Assembly (NCBI RefSeq): GCF_039536245.1
Contig: NZ_BAAAYN010000056.1
Span: 26,394-75,071 of the forward strand
Source: Cryptosporangium minutisporangium
Lineage (GTDB): Bacteria; Actinomycetota; Actinomycetes; Mycobacteriales; Cryptosporangiaceae
Direction: 5' to 3'
DNA: 48,678 nt
Part shown: in pieces, positions 18,906 through 27,528 of the stretch
How positions within the stretch are numbered: the stretch's first letter is position 1
How the letters are laid out: each line of letters starts with the position of its first letter
Program-made: the position numbers and the translations under genes
The notes under the pieces: model-generated
Databases searched by the model: none
The model's input: the letters and a program-made list of their open reading frames with translations, nothing else
Told to the model about the DNA's origin: nothing

Positions 18906-18985
18906 AACCGAACGACATCGGTTGTTCACGCACTACGGCGCGTGAGTCACTTGTTCACTCTCCGTCCAACTTGTATCCTGACTTC
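18906..18985 (+). promoter_or_regulatory. Leaderless promoter and operator of the LuxR ATPase gene
   Basis: TTGTTC (18951-18956) and TATCCT (18974-18979) are 17 bp apart, and the GTG start codon at 18986 lies six bases after the -10, the geometry of a leaderless transcript. Just upstream are a perfect dyad AACCGA-N6-TCGGTT (18906-18923), a dyad TCACGC/GCGTGA, and a direct repeat TTGTTCAC at 18922 and 18951, the second overlapping the -35. Two CTTAAG sites (18759, 18782) lie nearer the peptide gene. Confidence 0.6.
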
Positions 18986-21835
18986 GTGACGATTTCTCCG
19001 GTTCCCGGCTCGCTGATCGGGCGTGACCTGGAGATCGCGAAGTTCGACCGATGGATCACCGGCTGCCTTCGAGGCGACGGCCGGGCGGTTCTCATCGACG
19101 GCGAAGCCGGTATCGGCAAATCCACCCTGATGCGAACGGTCTGCCTTCAAGCCGCCGAGGCCGGGTTCACCATCTACCGTGGTGCCGGCGACGAACTGGG
19201 GCAGGCACTGCCCCTGCTGCCATTCCTCGACGCGCTCGAGGTCCGCGAGTCCACAGCCGACCCACGTCGGCGCGCGGTGCTCCAGCTGTTGCGCGGCGAA
19301 TTCTCCGCCGGCGCCGCGGTCGATGCGGCCACCGCTGCCTCCGAGCACCTGTTCGCGTTGATCGAGCAGCTATGCGAGCAGTCACCGACGATGGTCGTGA
19401 TCGACGATCTGCAGTGGTCCGATCCGACCACTGTCGCGCTCTGGGGTCGGCTCGCCCGGGCGGCCCGGCAGCTGCCCCTCCCGCTGCCACTGTTCCTGCT
19501 CGGCCTCGCCCGGCCGACTCCGCAGGGCGACAGCCTGCGAGCGCTGCGGCGAGCGATCGACCCCGGGGAGCTTGTCCGACTCGGACCATTGGACGCACCC
19601 GACGTCGCCACGCTGCTCACGAGCCTGACCGGGGCTCGGCCGGGTACAGGGCTTACCCGGCTGGCAAGCGGGGCGGCCGGCAATCCGCTTTACCTGACCG
19701 AGCTCGTCGGCGCGCTGAGCCGCGGTTCGTTCCTCGCCGAAACAGAGCCCGGCACCGTCGACGTCGTATCTGGTGCGCCGCCGCGGACACTGTCGGCCGC
19801 GATCGCCGACCGTCTCGGCTTCCTGCCGGAGCAGGCGCGCGGCATCCTGCGTACTGCAGCGCTACTCGGGGTTCGATTCGCCGTCGACGACCTCGCGCTG
19901 GTCCTCAAGCAGAGCGTCACCGACCTGCTGCCCTCGCTGCAGGAGGCCATCGCCGCCGGCGTCCTCGCCGATACGCCGGAAGGCCTGGGCTTCCGGCATC
20001 CGCTGATCCGGACGGCCCTCTACGAGGAGCTCCCCGCGTCGGTCCGCTCCGCGTTGCACCGGGACGCCGGCCGCGCGCTCGCCGCGGCACACGCGCCCGT
20101 CGAACGCGTCGCACGGCAGCTTCTCTCGGCCGACGATCCGTCGGGACTGCGCCTCGGCCCCCTTGAGCCCTGGGTGGAGGACTGGTTGGCGGAAGCCGGA
20201 CCAGCGCTGGTAGCGCAGGCGCCGCAGGCGGCGGTCGACCTGCTCCGCCGCGCCACCACCGGTTGGTCGGTGCGGCCTGCCAGCGAGGTGCTCTCGACGA
20301 TGCTGGCCGACGCACTCTTCCGCGTCGGCAACATTCCCGATGCGATCGAGGTGGCCACAGCCGCGCTCGACCGGGTCACCGACCCGGACCTACTCGTCGA
20401 GCTGAACTGGATCCACAGCCAGGCACAGACGCAGGTCGGTGAGAGCTCGGTCGCCCTGGAAGCCCTGCACAAGGCGCTGGCCAACCCAACGCTCAGTGCG
20501 CGTCACCGGGCGCGACTGCTGATTTCGGTCGGACGCGCGCACCGAATGGTCGGCCAGGTCGAGTTGGCGGAGAAGGCTGGTGAGGAAGCCCGGGCGTTCG
20601 CCCTCGAGTCCAACGATCGGTGGGCGCTGGCGTGGGCGCTGCACATCCTCTGCATCGCGACCGTGACCCGAGGCGCCGGTGCGGAAAGTATTCCGCTGTT
20701 CGACCAAGCCGTCGCGGCTACCGCCGACGAGCTCTCACTAACCGATCTCCGCCTCCTGGTCCAGCTCAACCGCGCGGTCGCGCTCGGCGACTTGGACCGC
20801 TATCCGGAAGCACTGGAGGCTGCCCGGGACGTCCGCGACGCGGCGGCCCGCGCTGGCAGTGCGATCCGGCTAGCCCAGGCTTACACGTCGCTCTGCGAGC
20901 TGTATTTCGAGAACGGTCAATGGGATGACCTGCTTGCCGACCTTGATGCAGTACCGGACGACGCGCGGGACCAAGCCTCCGCCTGCCAGCACCGGGGCAT
21001 CGCGGCAACCGTCCTCCTGCACCGGGGCGAGACCGAAGCCGGCCTCCGCAACCTTGAGTTGTCCGAGGCGCACGCGGTGCGAGTCGGGCTGCGGGTCATT
21101 GCGGCGCTCGCGCTCGCACGTGCGCTCCGATTCGAGCAGGAGGGCCGGCCGGAGGAAGCGCTCGCCAGTCTGCTCGCCTACCTGACCGGCGACGTCGAGG
21201 AACTCGATGAGATGGAAGAGCTCCTTCCGGACGCCATGCGGCTCGCGCTGGAGTGCAACGATCTGAACGGCGCGGCGCACGTGCTCCGGTTGGCGGACGA
21301 AGCCGCCGCCCGCGCCGAGATCCCGCACCGGGTAGGCACTGCTGCGTATTGCCGGGGACTGCGAGACGGGAGCCCCCAGTTGCTGCTCCAAGCGGCCGAG
21401 CACTATCTAGTCGCCGGTCGTCCGCTCCGCCGGGCCGCCGCGCTAGAAGCCGCCGCTGCCCGATTCGCCGAGGCCGGCGAGCGCACCGAAGCGCGGTCCG
21501 CGTTCAGTCGCGCGTTGGATGGCTATCACGCGCTCGAGGCCAGCTGGGACGCCGCCCGGCTGCAGAACCGGTTCCGGGAGTACGGCATCCGGCGGGCTCC
21601 GCGAGTCAAGCACCGGCAAGCCCGGTCCGGCTGGGACAGCCTTACCCCGACCGAATCGAAGGTCGCCGAGTTGGTCACGCAAGGGATGTCGAACCCGCAG
21701 ATCGCTGCCCAGCTGTTCTTGTCGCCGCGGACCGTCAGCACGCACGTCTCGCACATCCTCAGCAAGCTCGACCTGCGCTCCCGGATCGACCTGGCCCGCG
21801 AGGCCGCGCGCCGGGCGGAACCTCCCGGCGCCTGA
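18986..21835 (+). CDS. Large ATP-binding LuxR-family (LAL) regulator
   Basis: This 949-residue transcriptional regulator of the LAL/MalT-like type has an N-terminal AAA/STAND ATPase with Walker A GEAGIGKST (residues 39-47) and Walker B TMVVIDDLQWSD. A long helical repeat region in the middle resembles TPRs and is the usual inducer-binding part. The C-terminal LuxR helix-turn-helix is LTPTESKVAELVTQGMSNPQ then FLSPRTVSTHVSHILSKL. The start is GTG 18986, fitting the leaderless promoter; an upstream in-frame TTG (18971) overlaps the -10 and is unlikely. It is divergent from a 36-residue secreted-peptide gene. Such proteins activate genes on binding a small ligand; the ligand is unknown. Confidence 0.93.
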   Translation: MTISPVPGSLIGRDLEIAKFDRWITGCLRGDGRAVLIDGEAGIGKSTLMRTVCLQAAEAGFTIYRGAGDELGQALPLLPFLDALEVRESTADPRRRAVLQLLRGEFSAGAAVDAATAASEHLFALIEQLCEQSPTMVVIDDLQWSDPTTVALWGRLARAARQLPLPLPLFLLGLARPTPQGDSLRALRRAIDPGELVRLGPLDAPDVATLLTSLTGARPGTGLTRLASGAAGNPLYLTELVGALSRGSFLAETEPGTVDVVSGAPPRTLSAAIADRLGFLPEQARGILRTAALLGVRFAVDDLALVLKQSVTDLLPSLQEAIAAGVLADTPEGLGFRHPLIRTALYEELPASVRSALHRDAGRALAAAHAPVERVARQLLSADDPSGLRLGPLEPWVEDWLAEAGPALVAQAPQAAVDLLRRATTGWSVRPASEVLSTMLADALFRVGNIPDAIEVATAALDRVTDPDLLVELNWIHSQAQTQVGESSVALEALHKALANPTLSARHRARLLISVGRAHRMVGQVELAEKAGEEARAFALESNDRWALAWALHILCIATVTRGAGAESIPLFDQAVAATADELSLTDLRLLVQLNRAVALGDLDRYPEALEAARDVRDAAARAGSAIRLAQAYTSLCELYFENGQWDDLLADLDAVPDDARDQASACQHRGIAATVLLHRGETEAGLRNLELSEAHAVRVGLRVIAALALARALRFEQEGRPEEALASLLAYLTGDVEELDEMEELLPDAMRLALECNDLNGAAHVLRLADEAAARAEIPHRVGTAAYCRGLRDGSPQLLLQAAEHYLVAGRPLRRAAALEAAAARFAEAGERTEARSAFSRALDGYHALEASWDAARLQNRFREYGIRRAPRVKHRQARSGWDSLTPTESKVAELVTQGMSNPQIAAQLFLSPRTVSTHVSHILSKLDLRSRIDLAREAARRAEPPGA

Positions 21836-22020: not shown

Positions 22021-23940
22021 CTACGTCCCCTCGGGTGTCGGGTATCCGTGCCGCGGTGTGAACGTGCTCGGCGGCGTGACCCGCGCACGTCCGATCACCC
22101 CTTCCCGGCTGGCGGACTCGCCCCTCGGTCCGGCAGCGGCGTCCGAACCGGACGGCCCCCCGGGAATGACCGGGAGGGAGCCGGTGTCGGTCGGACCGAT
22201 CGGCCCGTCCGGGTACACGAGGCCGCCCGGATACGGAGGCCCGGCCGGCGCGGGGTCTGCCAGGGCGGGGCCGGCACTGGCAGGACCGGCCGCGCCGGCC
22301 GGAGTGGGAGCGGGCTCCCCGCCGGTGGCGGGGAGCCCGGTGGGGGCGGGACCGAGTGGTAATGCGACGCCGAACTGCGTGACGCCGTGCTCCGCGGAGC
22401 CGTGTTGCATGCCGTCGCCCGCCTGGCCGCTCTGCATCCCGTCGCCGACCGCACCGCTCGGCGTCCCGTCGTCCGCGTGGAGACGGGGCACTTCGCCGGT
22501 AGAGAAGCGGGGCAGGTCTCCGGTCGAGAACCGAGGGATGTCTCCCGTCGAGTACGGAGTCGGCAGGTCCGTGCGGGAGATCCCGTGATGCCGTCCCCGC
22601 GGGCCGCGGGCGGCAGCACCGTCGAACGGCGTGGTGTACGAACCGGGCCCGCCGAACGGCGAGGAATCCCCGAGCGGCACCGGACCACCGAGCGGACCCG
22701 GACCCGACACCGGGCCCACGGCTCCGAGGGCCAGGGGACCCAGCGGATCCACCGCGGCGTACCGGCCGTTCGGCAGCTCGCTGCCCGTGAGGCCGTCCGC
22801 GCCGGTGGGGGCGCCGGTGCCGGAGCGGACGTCGCCGATAGCGCCGACGGGGCCGCTGACAGGGGCGGGGCCGGCGACCGGGACCGGGCCGTTGCGGCCG
22901 TTCCGGCCGAAAGCCCCTGCCGGATCCCGGGGCGTCGAGTCCAGGCCGTTCCGGCCGAAAACCCCTGCCGGATCCCGGGGCGTCGAGTCCAGGCCGTTCC
23001 GGCCGGGCGCCCAGGAGGGATCGCCGGGTGCACCGGACGGGTCGTGGGGCGGGTACGGGCTGTTCGGGCCCGTCGCCGCACCGGGCTGCGGCGACGGGCG
23101 GTCGTAGCCGACGGCCGGCAGCTGGCCACCGGGGTAACCCAGCTGGTCGGAGCCGGCCAGCGACGGGTGCGGCGCGGGCATCATCGGCAGCCGGGGTGCG
23201 GGCCACGTCGGACCGGGACGCAGCTGCGGCGGGTGCGGGCCGGGCAGGCCCCGATCGGCACCGGCCACCGGCCGCGTCCCCAACGCGGGGTGGGAGCCCG
23301 CCGGCGCCGAGCCGCCGAGCGCGCGCGACGCGTCGCCTCCGTCCGCCTGGTCGTCGCGGAGCCGATCGCTACGCAACTTCTGGCTCGCGACCTCCAGCGC
23401 GGCGATCGTGGCCTCTTTCCGCCGTCGTCGTTGCCCGATCCGTGCCCATCCCGGCGCGAGGTACCACCAGGTGAGGAACCAGAGCAGCGATCCGGCGGTG
23501 ATCCAGAGCGCGTACGTGGTGCCCATCACGACGTCGAGAATCAGCAGCAGCGAGCCGTTGAAGGCGAGCATCAGCAGCGTGACGCCCCAGAGCGCGAACT
23601 TGCTGGAGGCCCGGACCAGCTGGGCTTCGAGCCGGCGACGGAACACCAGCCGGTGGAACGGTGCAGGGGCGATCAGCAGGCAGGTGGCGCCGGCGACCAG
23701 CACCAGGCTCACCACGTACACGCTGCGCTGGAAGCGCGTCGTGTCCGCGAAGCGACTGGTGAACGCGAGCGTGAGCAGGAACACGAGGAGTAGCTGCGTA
23801 CCGATCTGCGCCGCCCGGACCTCGTGGAGGATCTCCAGGTAGTTCCGGTTCCAGCGTTGCGTCGGCGTCTCCCGCGTCCGCGGGTCACGCGGCTCCGACC
23901 GGCCGGAGACCGCACTCGCTGCGGTCAATTCCCTTGCCAT
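22021..23940 (-). CDS. DUF6328 membrane protein with long low-complexity tail
   Basis: The first 165 or so residues form a DUF6328 domain: ETPTQRWNRNYLEILHEVRA, then four hydrophobic segments (TQLLLVFLLTLAFT, VYVVSLVLVAGATCLL, FALWGVTLLMLAFNGSLLLI, LWITAGSLLWFLTWWYLA). The family is normally only about that long and its role is unknown. Here it is followed by some 450 residues rich in Pro, Gly, Ser and Asp with several internal repeats (RNGLDSTPRDPAGVFG twice; STGDIPRF-type heptads; GAVGDGMQSGQAGDG). The tail would lie in the cytosol if the helix number is four. ATG 23940 has GGAAGG upstream and shares its leader with the gene at 26866. It is the last gene of a minus-strand cluster. Confidence 0.8.
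   Translation of the reverse strand: MARELTAASAVSGRSEPRDPRTRETPTQRWNRNYLEILHEVRAAQIGTQLLLVFLLTLAFTSRFADTTRFQRSVYVVSLVLVAGATCLLIAPAPFHRLVFRRRLEAQLVRASSKFALWGVTLLMLAFNGSLLLILDVVMGTTYALWITAGSLLWFLTWWYLAPGWARIGQRRRRKEATIAALEVASQKLRSDRLRDDQADGGDASRALGGSAPAGSHPALGTRPVAGADRGLPGPHPPQLRPGPTWPAPRLPMMPAPHPSLAGSDQLGYPGGQLPAVGYDRPSPQPGAATGPNSPYPPHDPSGAPGDPSWAPGRNGLDSTPRDPAGVFGRNGLDSTPRDPAGAFGRNGRNGPVPVAGPAPVSGPVGAIGDVRSGTGAPTGADGLTGSELPNGRYAAVDPLGPLALGAVGPVSGPGPLGGPVPLGDSSPFGGPGSYTTPFDGAAARGPRGRHHGISRTDLPTPYSTGDIPRFSTGDLPRFSTGEVPRLHADDGTPSGAVGDGMQSGQAGDGMQHGSAEHGVTQFGVALPLGPAPTGLPATGGEPAPTPAGAAGPASAGPALADPAPAGPPYPGGLVYPDGPIGPTDTGSLPVIPGGPSGSDAAAGPRGESASREGVIGRARVTPPSTFTPRHGYPTPEGT
22897..23004 (-). repeat. 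48-bp tandem repeat in the DUF6328 tail
   Basis: Two units of 48 bp (22897-22944, 22945-22992) differing at one base, and 12 bases of a third, code for a 16-residue repeat starting RNGLDSTPRDPAG. The frame is kept. Confidence 0.9.
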
Positions 23941-24045
23941 CAGAACACCCACCTTCCGGCGTGGACGGTGCCCGAAGGCGGGTTCCGTCGCTGGTTAAAG
24001 ACTTGTCCACGTGGCGTCAGAAGACATCGGTCGACTGACGTAGAC
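23941..24045 (-). promoter_or_regulatory. Conserved structured 5' leader (copy A) of DUF6328 gene
   Basis: The leader shares three blocks, in order and nearly equal spacing, with the leader of the gene at 26866-27426: an identical 24-base block at 24022-24045 (reads GTCTACGTC..GATGTCT on the minus strand), CAGCGACGGAACC (23981-23993) and the ribosome site GGAAGGTG (23950-23957). Between the first two blocks, GAC/GTC can pair here and TACGC/GCGTA in the other copy. GACGG/CCGTC pairs in both. This fits a cis-regulatory RNA or a shared promoter plus leader; I cannot match it to a known riboswitch. Confidence 0.6.
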
Positions 24046-24278: not shown

Positions 24279-25253
24279 TCACACCGCTGCTTCGAGCCGA
24301 TGACGGGCGAACCGTGGATCGGCGGTGATCGGGGTCGCGCCGGACGGCACCGGCGCGTCGATCGGGCGGTACACCGGCCGCGGACCGGCTTTCCGACGCG
24401 GCAGGTAACGGTGGTAGATCTCCAGCCGGGCGGAGGCGGTCGGCGGAACCATGCCCGCGCGGCCGAACGAGTGCAGGATCGCCTGGTGCAGGACGCGGGC
24501 GGCGTCCTGCCTCGAGACCCCACCCTCGGGCCCCAGGCAGCGCGCGATCATCGGCAGGGCGTTGTACCGGTTCTGATCGGCGAGTTCCCGGCACGCCATC
24601 TCGAACGCGACGTAGAAGCCGGAGAACGCCACCGGGTACGCGAGCGTCTCGGTGAAGTGCAGTCGGTGCCGCGACAGCGCGGGCACCGCGTACCAGCGCA
24701 GGCCCAGCTCGGCGAACCAGGCGTACCCCGGATGCTCGAGGTTCACCTCCAGCACTCGCTCCGGCGAGAGCTCGTAGGCGATCACCGGCCCGTCGTGCAC
24801 GCGCAACAGCAGCGGTAGGACGTCGAACGGGCCCGGCAGCAGTCGGCCACCGTCGACCGGCCGCCCGCCCGGCCACCCGGCCCGCAAGGCCAGCGTGGTG
24901 AGCTCCAGGTGGCGTGGATCGCCGAGGATCGTGCCGTCGGCCTGCCGGTAGCCGGCGTAGCCGACCAGCTGGTCGTTGAGGATCTCGACGCCCGGATCCA
25001 GCACGGTGGCGACCGACCGGATCCGTCCGTCCCGGGTGGCGACCCGGAGGTGCTCGGCCAGCCCGGAGGCCACCGCGTCCGGATCGGTCACCCCCCGCAG
25101 GTCCCGCACTTGCAGGCCACGCCAGCGCAGGCGTCCGATGCCTCGGTCGGCGTTCGCCCAGGCGACCCGCGCCGCCCAAGCCAGTTGCTCGGTGGTGGGA
25201 ATGGTCGGGCCGGCCGGGTTTCTCCGGTCCGCCGCGACGACCTCGATCCTCAC
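24279..25253 (-). CDS. NOS oxygenase-like protein lacking the heme cysteine
   Basis: This 324-residue protein is clearly homologous to bacterial nitric oxide synthase oxygenase: TTEQLAWAARVAWANADRG.., HLRVATRDGRIR, LVGYAGYR, GDPRHLELT, FDVLPLLL, FAELGLRWYAVPALS, NRYNALPMIA and LHSFGRAG all align with the family. In real NOS the proximal heme ligand is Cys in W-R-N-x-x-R-C-I-G-R; here this is W-A-N-A-D-R-G-I-G-R, Gly38 (GGC at 25140-25142). The substrate glutamate seems kept (GFYVAFEM, Glu218), but the GG-L-T-Y-x-A-A-P-F-N-G-W segment is changed and the C-terminal pterin/heme part is much shortened. It cannot be a normal heme-thiolate NOS. GTG start with GGAGG seven bases upstream. It lies between the decarboxylase and DUF6328 genes. 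Confidence 0.85.
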   Translation of the reverse strand: MRIEVVAADRRNPAGPTIPTTEQLAWAARVAWANADRGIGRLRWRGLQVRDLRGVTDPDAVASGLAEHLRVATRDGRIRSVATVLDPGVEILNDQLVGYAGYRQADGTILGDPRHLELTTLALRAGWPGGRPVDGGRLLPGPFDVLPLLLRVHDGPVIAYELSPERVLEVNLEHPGYAWFAELGLRWYAVPALSRHRLHFTETLAYPVAFSGFYVAFEMACRELADQNRYNALPMIARCLGPEGGVSRQDAARVLHQAILHSFGRAGMVPPTASARLEIYHRYLPRRKAGPRPVYRPIDAPVPSGATPITADPRFARHRLEAAV

Positions 25254-25315: not shown

Positions 25316-26869
25316 TCAGTCGCGCAGCACGCAGACCGTGGCGAGCGTCGGGTCGGCGGCACCGTGGATGTGCATGCCGGTGTCGACCGCGCGGGTCAGT
25401 GCGGCGACCGTGTCGCGGTCGAGGTACTCACCGGGCATCACGGCCGGGACTCCCGGCGGGTACGGCGTGATCGGCTCCGCGCTCGTTCGTCCGACGGCCC
25501 GCGCGAGCGGGACGGCCTCGGTCGCGGCGAAGTGCGCCTCGCGCGGGGTGCAGATCTGCTTGCGAGGGGCGAGCAGCGCGGCGACCAGCTGACCGTCCCA
25601 GGCCGGACGCAACCGTCGGCGAGGGCTGCAGGACAGCGTGCGCAGCGCCGTGACGAGGGCGTCCACCACGTCCGGGGAGGTACAGGTGGTGATCGCCACG
25701 AACAGGTTGCTCTCGTCGGCGCCCTCGACGGCTACCGCCGGGTGGAGCAGCCCGCTGGTACCGCGGCCGGGGCCGGGCGACCGCAGCAGCCTCTCCAGTT
25801 CGAGGCCGGTGACGCCGAGCCCGCGGACGCTGATGACCAGCCGCAGCGGGTCGAAGCGCTCCTGGGGAACGCCGAGGTCCTCGGCCTCGGCGACCCGTAC
25901 GCCGGGGATCGCGGCGAGCCGCCGCCGCGCGTCGGCGACCAGCTCCAGCGTCCGGTCGAGCAGGACGCGGCCGCGGCTGACCATCGTGCGGCGCGCCTCG
26001 TCGATGCTCGCGAGCACCGGTAGCAGCGGGCTGGTCGTCTGGGTCATCTGGACGGTACGGCCGATCCGGCCGGCGTCGACCCGGTCGCCCCGGATCAGGA
26101 TGATCGCCGCGCCGGACGGCGCCGCCAGCATCTTGTGCGCGGAGGTCACCGCCACGTCGGCGCCGGCCGTGATCGCGTTCTCCGGCAGGTCGGGGTGGAA
26201 CGGGAGGTGCGCGCCCCAGGCCTCGTCGACGAAGAGCGGCGCGTCGTGCCGGTGTGCGACCGCGGCGAGCGCCCGGACGTCCGAGCAGGCGCCGGCGTAT
26301 CCGGGGCTGACCATGCTCACCAGGCCCGCGCGGTGTCCCCCGGCGGCCAGGTCGCTGAGGGTGCGGTCCAGGGAGACCGGGTCGATGCCGAGGCTGATCC
26401 CGAAGCCGCCCTGGTCGAGCCGGGGCGTGACCCAGTGCGGCGTCGCGCCGGAGAGCACCAGGCCGGCGAGCGTCGACGTGTGGCTGTCCCGTGCGACGAC
26501 GACGTGGTCGGTGCCCGGCCCGGCGGCTTGCTGGTGCGCCAGGTGGACGGCGCGGTTGCCGCCGGACGAACCGTCGAGCAGGAACAGGGCCTCGTCCGAG
26601 CCCCACGCCTTGGCGGCGAGCGCCTCGGCACCGCGGCGGGCGGCGGTCGCGTCCGCGGGCGTCAGCCACACGTCGGACGCGAGGAAGGTGCCGCCGAGCA
26701 GCTTGCGGAGGCCCGAGCCGACCGTGCGGCCACCGGCGTGGCCGGGGACGTGCAGGGCGCCGGTGTCGCAGCCGCGGTAGCGGATGATCGCGTCGACCAG
26801 CGGTGCCGAGCCGTGCGCGGCGTCGTAGAGAACCGGCCGGTCGCCGGAGGAGAGGGCAACGGCGGTCAT
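25316..26869 (-). CDS. Orn/Lys/Arg-type PLP decarboxylase
   Basis: This is a 517-residue fold-type I PLP enzyme of the compact Orn/Lys/Arg decarboxylase group (aromatic/basic amino-acid decarboxylase III). Visible are the N-terminal LHVPGHAGG, the phosphate loop LLDGSSGGN, the cofactor Asp in PLFVDEAWGAHLPFH (Asp215) and the Schiff-base lysine in VTSAHKMLAAPSG (Lys246). The C-terminal ITPYPPGVPAVMPGE is typical. Substrate (arginine, lysine or ornithine) cannot be told from the sequence. It overlaps the upstream SMR-like gene as ATGA and precedes the NOS-like gene by 62 bp, so it is the second gene of a likely operon. Confidence 0.92.
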   Translation of the reverse strand: MTAVALSSGDRPVLYDAAHGSAPLVDAIIRYRGCDTGALHVPGHAGGRTVGSGLRKLLGGTFLASDVWLTPADATAARRGAEALAAKAWGSDEALFLLDGSSGGNRAVHLAHQQAAGPGTDHVVVARDSHTSTLAGLVLSGATPHWVTPRLDQGGFGISLGIDPVSLDRTLSDLAAGGHRAGLVSMVSPGYAGACSDVRALAAVAHRHDAPLFVDEAWGAHLPFHPDLPENAITAGADVAVTSAHKMLAAPSGAAIILIRGDRVDAGRIGRTVQMTQTTSPLLPVLASIDEARRTMVSRGRVLLDRTLELVADARRRLAAIPGVRVAEAEDLGVPQERFDPLRLVISVRGLGVTGLELERLLRSPGPGRGTSGLLHPAVAVEGADESNLFVAITTCTSPDVVDALVTALRTLSCSPRRRLRPAWDGQLVAALLAPRKQICTPREAHFAATEAVPLARAVGRTSAEPITPYPPGVPAVMPGEYLDRDTVAALTRAVDTGMHIHGAADPTLATVCVLRD

Positions 26870-27426
26870 CGGTTCGCCGTCCTTTCACCGATGACCGCCG
26901 TGCCGCCTACCGCGCCGGACGGACCGGCGGTCGGGGAGGGTGCGATCGAGGCGGATTTGGCGGACTTTCCGTTCGGGGCGAGGATCATGTAGGTCATCAG
27001 CGCGAAGATCACGGCCATCGCGGCCCACTTGCCTGCCGGCACCACGACGCCGTTCTCGACCCGGTCCATCACCAGGACGCCTACCTGCAGCAGGACGATC
27101 CAGCCGAGGGTCACGGTGCCGAGCTCCGCCCACTGCAGGCTCGCCGCGTACACCCCGAACAGGCCCAGGAACGCGATCGCTCCGGCCGACCACCAGAGCT
27201 GGTGACCGTTGTCCATGTAGCGCATCGCGCAGTAGCTGCCGATCAGGTCCAGGCCGGCGAGCGCGACCATGGCGGCGATCCCCATCGGGGAGAACTCGAG
27301 ACTCTTGCTGGCGACGATCGGTTCGGCCAGCGCCGACGCGACGGTTGGTTCGTGCAGGGACGCGGGGAGACGGAAGACGTCGGCAACAGGTGCCGACGTA
27401 GCGTCCACGGTCGTGTAAATGGCCAT
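26866..27426 (-). CDS. SMR-like four-helix membrane protein
   Basis: A 186-residue protein with four hydrophobic helices at about 48-69, 78-98, 102-121 and 131-150, the layout of small multidrug resistance exporters. Helix 1 reads ALAGLDLIGSYCAM, placing Asp60 where EmrE has its essential Glu14 (LAEVIG); helix 3 has Trp109 in LGWIVLLQVG, like EmrE Trp63. Unlike SMR proteins it has a 45-residue N-terminal extension and a 35-residue polar tail. SMR relatives export organic cations, including guanidinium, so a link with the decarboxylase product is possible but unproven. ATG 27426 has GGAAGGTG upstream and the conserved leader (copy B). First gene of the cluster. Confidence 0.65.
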   Translation of the reverse strand: MAIYTTVDATSAPVADVFRLPASLHEPTVASALAEPIVASKSLEFSPMGIAAMVALAGLDLIGSYCAMRYMDNGHQLWWSAGAIAFLGLFGVYAASLQWAELGTVTLGWIVLLQVGVLVMDRVENGVVVPAGKWAAMAVIFALMTYMILAPNGKSAKSASIAPSPTAGPSGAVGGTAVIGERTANR

Positions 27427-27528
27427 CAGCGCTCCACCTTCCTCACGGACGGCGCCCCGAGAGGTTCCGTCGCTGAGGGATACGCTCGCCTACGGTGCGT
27501 AAGGAGACATCGGTCGACTGACGTAGAC
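27427..27528 (-). promoter_or_regulatory. Conserved structured 5' leader (copy B) of SMR-like gene
   Basis: Partner of the leader at 23941-24045. The identical 24-base block is at 27505-27528, CAGCGACGGAACC at 27463-27475 and GGAAGGTG at 27435-27442. The spacers are 29 here against 28 bases there, and their sequences differ while keeping potential stems. Upstream, GTGTCCCG and CGTACG are also shared. The rest of 27529-27732 shows nothing else except the -10 of the next plus-strand gene. Confidence 0.6.

Follow-up and report, generated by a model that had tools for sequence, protein, structure and literature searches.

A nitric oxide synthase-like protein lacking the heme-ligand cysteine is encoded in an operon with a decarboxylase homologue in Cryptosporangium

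Introduction

The reaction centre of nitric oxide synthase (NOS) consists of heme, pterin and Arg, and the heme iron is bound by a proximal Cys, whose role together with its Trp is described in passages of PMC9500659. Dimerization is stated there to be required for NOS activity in vitro. The guanidine group of arginine is bound by a conserved Glu, as set out in part of PMC6120233. A paper on NOS-guided genome mining, in the excerpts considered here, places NOS in known biosynthetic clusters (PMC10831120).

NOS is defined by the link between Cys and heme. If conserved and under selection, a branch without this Cys would demonstrate that the NOS fold can survive the loss of its chemistry, and would represent a natural test of the arginine pocket without heme and pterin. 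Such a Cys-less branch is undescribed in the titles and abstract openings of the papers listed by searches of the open-access literature. Here, we describe a candidate for such a branch in the genus Cryptosporangium and compare it with known NOS.

Results and Discussion

A NOS oxygenase-like protein and its fold

The window, i.e. the whole stretch of 48,678 nucleotides of Cryptosporangium minutisporangium DNA that was analysed, encodes a NOS oxygenase-like protein of 324 aa on the minus strand (24279..25253). The frame starts with a GTG at 25253, with GGAGG just 5' of it, is open throughout and ends with a TGA at 24279. The original prediction of a bacterial NOS homologue was borne out, and its coordinates, strand and frame were right. 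A family-model search with Pfam NO_synthase (PF02898) gave 227.2 bits at a cut-off of 22.7. NOS heme domains of the PDB matched the protein by sequence with E-values down to 5e-51 (phmmer), and the query segment w-a-n-a-d-r-g-i-g-r was paired with W-R-N-A-P-R-C-V-G-R of PDB NOS. Identity to actinobacterial NOS members is 41-50% over the matched stretch.

An AlphaFold2 model of the protein (mean pLDDT 83) resembles NOS heme domains. Comparison with NOS by Foldseek gave a probability of 1.00 and TM-scores of 0.70-0.76 by query among the 50 matches listed. Since the model was built from an alignment of 49 NOS rows, the fold match stands for compatibility with the NOS fold, not for function. Confidence in the ligand loop was about equal in this model and in a model of ordinary NOS (block means of 76 and 75, respectively). 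Unlike bacterial NOS, the protein is devoid of the ligand Cys, carries W-A-N instead of W-R-N, has neither DHH nor WSW, and is shorter at both ends; its gene shares an operon with that of a PLP decarboxylase homologue. Judged from its sequence, the protein is homologous to NOS in fold but has no thiolate ligand.

The heme-ligand position

The ligand Cys had been proposed to be replaced by Gly38. Direct reading of the codon confirmed this: GGC, and not TGC, is found on the minus strand at 25140..25142, the position of the heme-ligand Cys in the alignment. Gly is encoded in the three sister genomes as well, in one of them by the synonymous codon GGG (GGC, GGC, GGG and GGC in the four genus genomes). 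In an alignment of 119 rows, the ligand column contains Gly in all four rows of the genus and Cys in all other NOS rows (115/115). L001 (a copy of L002) as well as L012 and L013 (which match weakly within another protein) were left out of these counts, and identical rows among the 115 were not collapsed. Eighty of the 115 rows represent the best 80 of 577 loci; this share is biased towards Cys, because one of the two patterns used for its retrieval contains Cys. The remaining 35 rows were obtained by whole-genome protein searches and are free of this bias. In a 166-row alignment, in which some loci are repeated, the sole other row without Cys at the ligand column is L179, which has Ala.

No other residue of the clade appears clearly to act as heme ligand, His196 staying a candidate. 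Since the thiolate ligand is absent, the NOS-like protein cannot be a NOS as known. The earlier statement that it would not make NO like known NOS is supported by the same loss. The protein is related to NOS by descent. It should not be called NOS, because the defining feature, the Cys thiolate, was looked for and is missing. The Pfam model annotates the gene as nitric oxide synthase, and NO production would therefore be wrongly predicted for the genus.

Integrity, selection and distribution of the gene

Shortened ends and lost catalytic residues could be the signs of a decaying gene or of a sequencing error. However, this explanation is hardly credible. The gene is intact in four of four species, its pairwise dN/dS values (0.12-0.22) are like those of its neighbours (0.08-0.41 for five other genes at the locus), and Gly is kept through a synonymous codon change. 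The start site and the ribosome-binding site are common to the genus copies. Neither a broken frame nor relaxed selection, the marks of a pseudogene, was found. The gene is under purifying selection, which argues against decay. A pseudogene or read error was rejected on the intact frames, the dN/dS values and the Gly encoded by GGG.

A search with P0001 gave one match in each of the four genus genomes, 87-100% identical and without inner stops. A single NOS-type match per genome was obtained with the Pfam model (own genome) and with P0001 and the clade profile (all four genomes), and the same searches found no ordinary NOS elsewhere in these genomes. Gly-type relatives outside the genus were not apparent in overlapping samples of relatives, class, order and phylum (61, 394, 397 and 396 genomes, respectively); for rows with unread loci this is judged by score alone, the best match outside the genus reaching 227 bits versus 708-729 bits inside. 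A first scan of genome contigs with P0001 found no relative, and two peptide patterns detected no Gly-type relatives in viral contigs. Fourteen plasmid records matched, all with less than 60% identity (residues unread).

In a tree inferred quickly from 118 rows (L010, a cut frame, was left out), the stem of the clade measures 2.85 changes per column and its tips 0-0.13. This corresponds to a burst of change followed by stasis. The position of the clade in the NOS tree is unsure because of the long branch and a program warning of long branches meeting.

The pterin side

Ahead of T-x-E-L the N-terminus is shortened; the ordinary NOS model used for comparison has two helices in this region. The C-terminus is shorter than in NOS, as had been predicted. 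Alignment of the last ~56 residues is ambiguous and allows two placements. In the first, an internal deletion of 33 residues leaves VPP...HRY in place. In the second, given by the tool alignments A2-A4 and by phmmer, the tail is diverged without deletion and has Ala-Ser at the position of His-His. A profile search favours the form with the 33-residue deletion, in which, however, the second stretch is worth only 2-4 bits. DHH and WSW are missing under either placement, and neither pterin-side motif was present in the clade in any alignment tried. In NOS, the pterin-side Trp and the DHH segment lie near the dimer interface.

Changed and retained residues around the active site

The Arg of W-R-N, found in all 115 other rows, is replaced by Ala33 (GCG; 25155..25157, minus strand), and W-A-N is read as originally claimed. 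Other sites that are nearly invariant elsewhere have also changed (G201T, M196H, W213F, Y43R, N211S and R98G/S). At position 201 the clade has Thr and the other rows have Gly (115/115). His196 (24666..24668, minus strand) corresponds to Met in 111/115 other rows and is a candidate alternative ligand, and Phe213 corresponds to Trp in 112/115. On the substrate side, Gly or Ser is found at position 98 (Arg in 111/115 others) and Glu at position 223 (Asn in 102/115 others). His199 is likewise new to the clade.

The likeness to bacterial NOS oxygenases (PF02898; e.g. Bacillus subtilis NOS) comprises the family model, the fold and residues Trp32, Gln95, Tyr214, Glu218, Arg222 and Arg229; Arg41 and Phe210 are retained NOS-type residues as well. 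Glu218, the Glu for the substrate guanidine (GAG; 24600..24602, minus strand), is kept in 4/4 of the clade, in agreement with the original prediction, and so is Trp32, the proximal Trp beside the heme ligand (4/4). Depending on the alignment used, the clade retains 60-63 of the 100-104 columns that show the highest conservation in ordinary NOS (identical ordinary rows collapsed, 132 left; L010 omitted). Most of the substrate-side residues examined are retained. The four genus species are close, and conservation of single residues is therefore weak evidence.

The positions of Trp32, Arg41 and Phe210 lie, as we assume from known NOS, around the heme. Without heme these residues would be needless, and their retention points against a heme-free protein. 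It would suit a protein in which heme is held by a new axial ligand, either His196 or an outside ligand that occupies the cavity opposite Gly38, and which acts as a new oxygenase, a peroxidase-like enzyme or a gas sensor. The invariance of His196 in the clade, at a site that is Met in nearly all other rows, and the new His199 would also suit such a protein. We nevertheless regard it as unlikely. The heme of NOS is held by Cys, the pterin-side motifs are lost in addition, and mammalian NOS enzymes with a mutated Cys ligand are poor heme binders. No structure puts His196 within reach of the iron, and heme is absent from the model.

The operon with a decarboxylase homologue

The NOS-like gene is the last gene of a three-gene operon, the order of which is the same in 4/4 genus genomes. 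The first gene encodes a membrane protein of 186 aa (26866..27426, minus strand), recognized by hydropathy and present in 4/4. Its end overlaps the start of the second gene (ATGA). This second gene, located 62 bp 5' of the NOS-like gene, encodes a PLP Orn/Lys/Arg decarboxylase homologue of 517 aa (25316..26869, minus strand; PF01276, 145 bits; PF03711, 39 bits). Like short-form Orn/Lys/Arg decarboxylases (PF01276/PF03711), it keeps 65 of the 75 columns conserved across 27 homologues (L165 left out), including Lys246, which we take to be the PLP/catalytic lysine. His245 and Asp215, presumably active-site residues, are retained as well. It differs from its homologues outside the genus, which share 35-45% identity over long stretches among the matches listed. 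None of the best 80 of 577 NOS loci has this decarboxylase homologue in flanks of up to 6 kb (0/80), nor do 7 further NOS loci with wider flanks. The operon was seen in one genus only.

The 186-aa membrane protein gave no significant Pfam match and no match to PDB sequences. A guanidinium-type exporter was considered for it as an idea only, as no family matched. Elsewhere in the own genome (G000, contig 18, 183211-183571), a further decarboxylase-like stretch is split into two adjacent pieces that lie in different frames (L166 and L167), perhaps a broken gene.

The operon with the Orn/Lys/Arg decarboxylase homologue fits a putative arginine or guanidino chemistry, and the surroundings of the locus point to amino-acid metabolism. 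We infer a physical or metabolic link between the NOS-like protein and the decarboxylase. Our favoured reading, to which we give somewhat less than an even chance, is that the NOS-like protein may be heme-free and bind arginine or a guanidino/amine compound in step with the decarboxylase. It would represent a repurposed NOS oxygenase domain. Loss of the thiolate ligand and of the pterin-side motifs would have ended heme-thiolate NO chemistry, as expected from the residues lost and the mechanism of NOS. The sequences themselves show that the fold and, for the most part, the arginine pocket were retained under selection. The heme-free protein would bind L-arginine or a guanidino/amine compound made or used by the decarboxylase homologue, and could serve as ligand-sensing or substrate-handling subunit of a small decarboxylase pathway. 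The ligand may be something other than free arginine, because Arg98 is changed to Gly/Ser and position 223 is Glu for Asn. The lost Cys, the largely kept arginine pocket and the operon with the decarboxylase homologue together suggest an old enzyme fold in new use. The original prediction had proposed binding of arginine or a guanidino compound, or a new reaction. Its structural part, a NOS fold without thiolate and with most substrate-side residues kept, held; the ligand that it proposed would fit the operon context.

The retained substrate-side Glu, Gln and Tyr would also suit an enzyme without heme in which the NOS pocket supports a new reaction, with arginine or an amine as substrate, at a step before or after that of the decarboxylase. 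The operon partner retains its catalytic Lys, and new polar residues (His196, His199, Thr201 and Arg43) are present in the clade. However, a new catalytic set or cofactor site is not recognisable among them and the support is at the level of the fold, so that we consider such an enzyme improbable. A structural or regulatory partner that acts without a small ligand, e.g. by scaffolding the decarboxylase or the membrane protein, would account for the loss of both heme ligand and pterin-side motifs in a fixed operon. It is distinctly unlikely, since Glu218 and other substrate-side residues were kept while other conserved sites changed.

A shared 21-bp element and neighbouring genes

A 21-bp element, CTACGTCAGTCGACCGATGTC, precedes the operon (27506..27526, minus strand), and a second copy precedes the adjacent gene, which encodes a DUF6328 protein (24023..24043, minus strand). 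Allowing up to 3 mismatches, the element occurs exactly twice per genome in 4/4 whole genomes, at these two places. The reversed pattern served as a control and had 0 occurrences in the four genomes. When aligned, the eight leaders have further common bases 3' of the element. Since the element is common to exactly these two sites, the operon and the DUF6328 gene look co-regulated. No match to a known RNA was obtained with Rfam in the window at gathering scores.

The start of the DUF6328 gene (22021..23940, minus strand) was set at the ATG after the 21-bp element; the longer frame (22021-23952) gave 152 bits with PF19853. The protein has a long Pro/Gly-rich tail and is present in 4/4. Between species it is 53-69% identical, and the 21-bp element upstream of it is nearly unchanged. 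Convergent with this gene lies a gene for a regulator with AAA_16 and LuxR-type (GerE) domains (18971..21835, plus strand). This adjacent regulator is a candidate for acting at the locus; synteny within one genus is weak proof.

We put forward a wider proposal tentatively. The clade may be a branch of the NOS fold, specific to this genus, that abandoned heme-thiolate chemistry. It may serve as an enzyme acting on guanidino or amine metabolites, or as a sensor for them, either without heme or with a new ligand (e.g. His196). The setting would be a dedicated arginine-type decarboxylase pathway that has a two-promoter element of its own.

Other divergent NOS paralogues

NOS paralogues from one family of the same order (f14; L011, L168-L178 and L180-L186) are also divergent from ordinary NOS. 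Like the clade described here, all of them have lost WSW (19/19, with L179 set aside). Unlike the clade, they keep the Cys after S-G-W (A-[LV]-R-x-S-G-W-C). Trp32 and I-G-R are lost, as is Glu218 in 13/19, which is nearly the opposite pattern. Several of the genomes with an f14 paralogue hold a second, better NOS match. L179 (1-3801) is a NOS-like frame in far-advanced decay; it has Ala at the Cys column, has lost W-R-N and keeps the substrate Glu.
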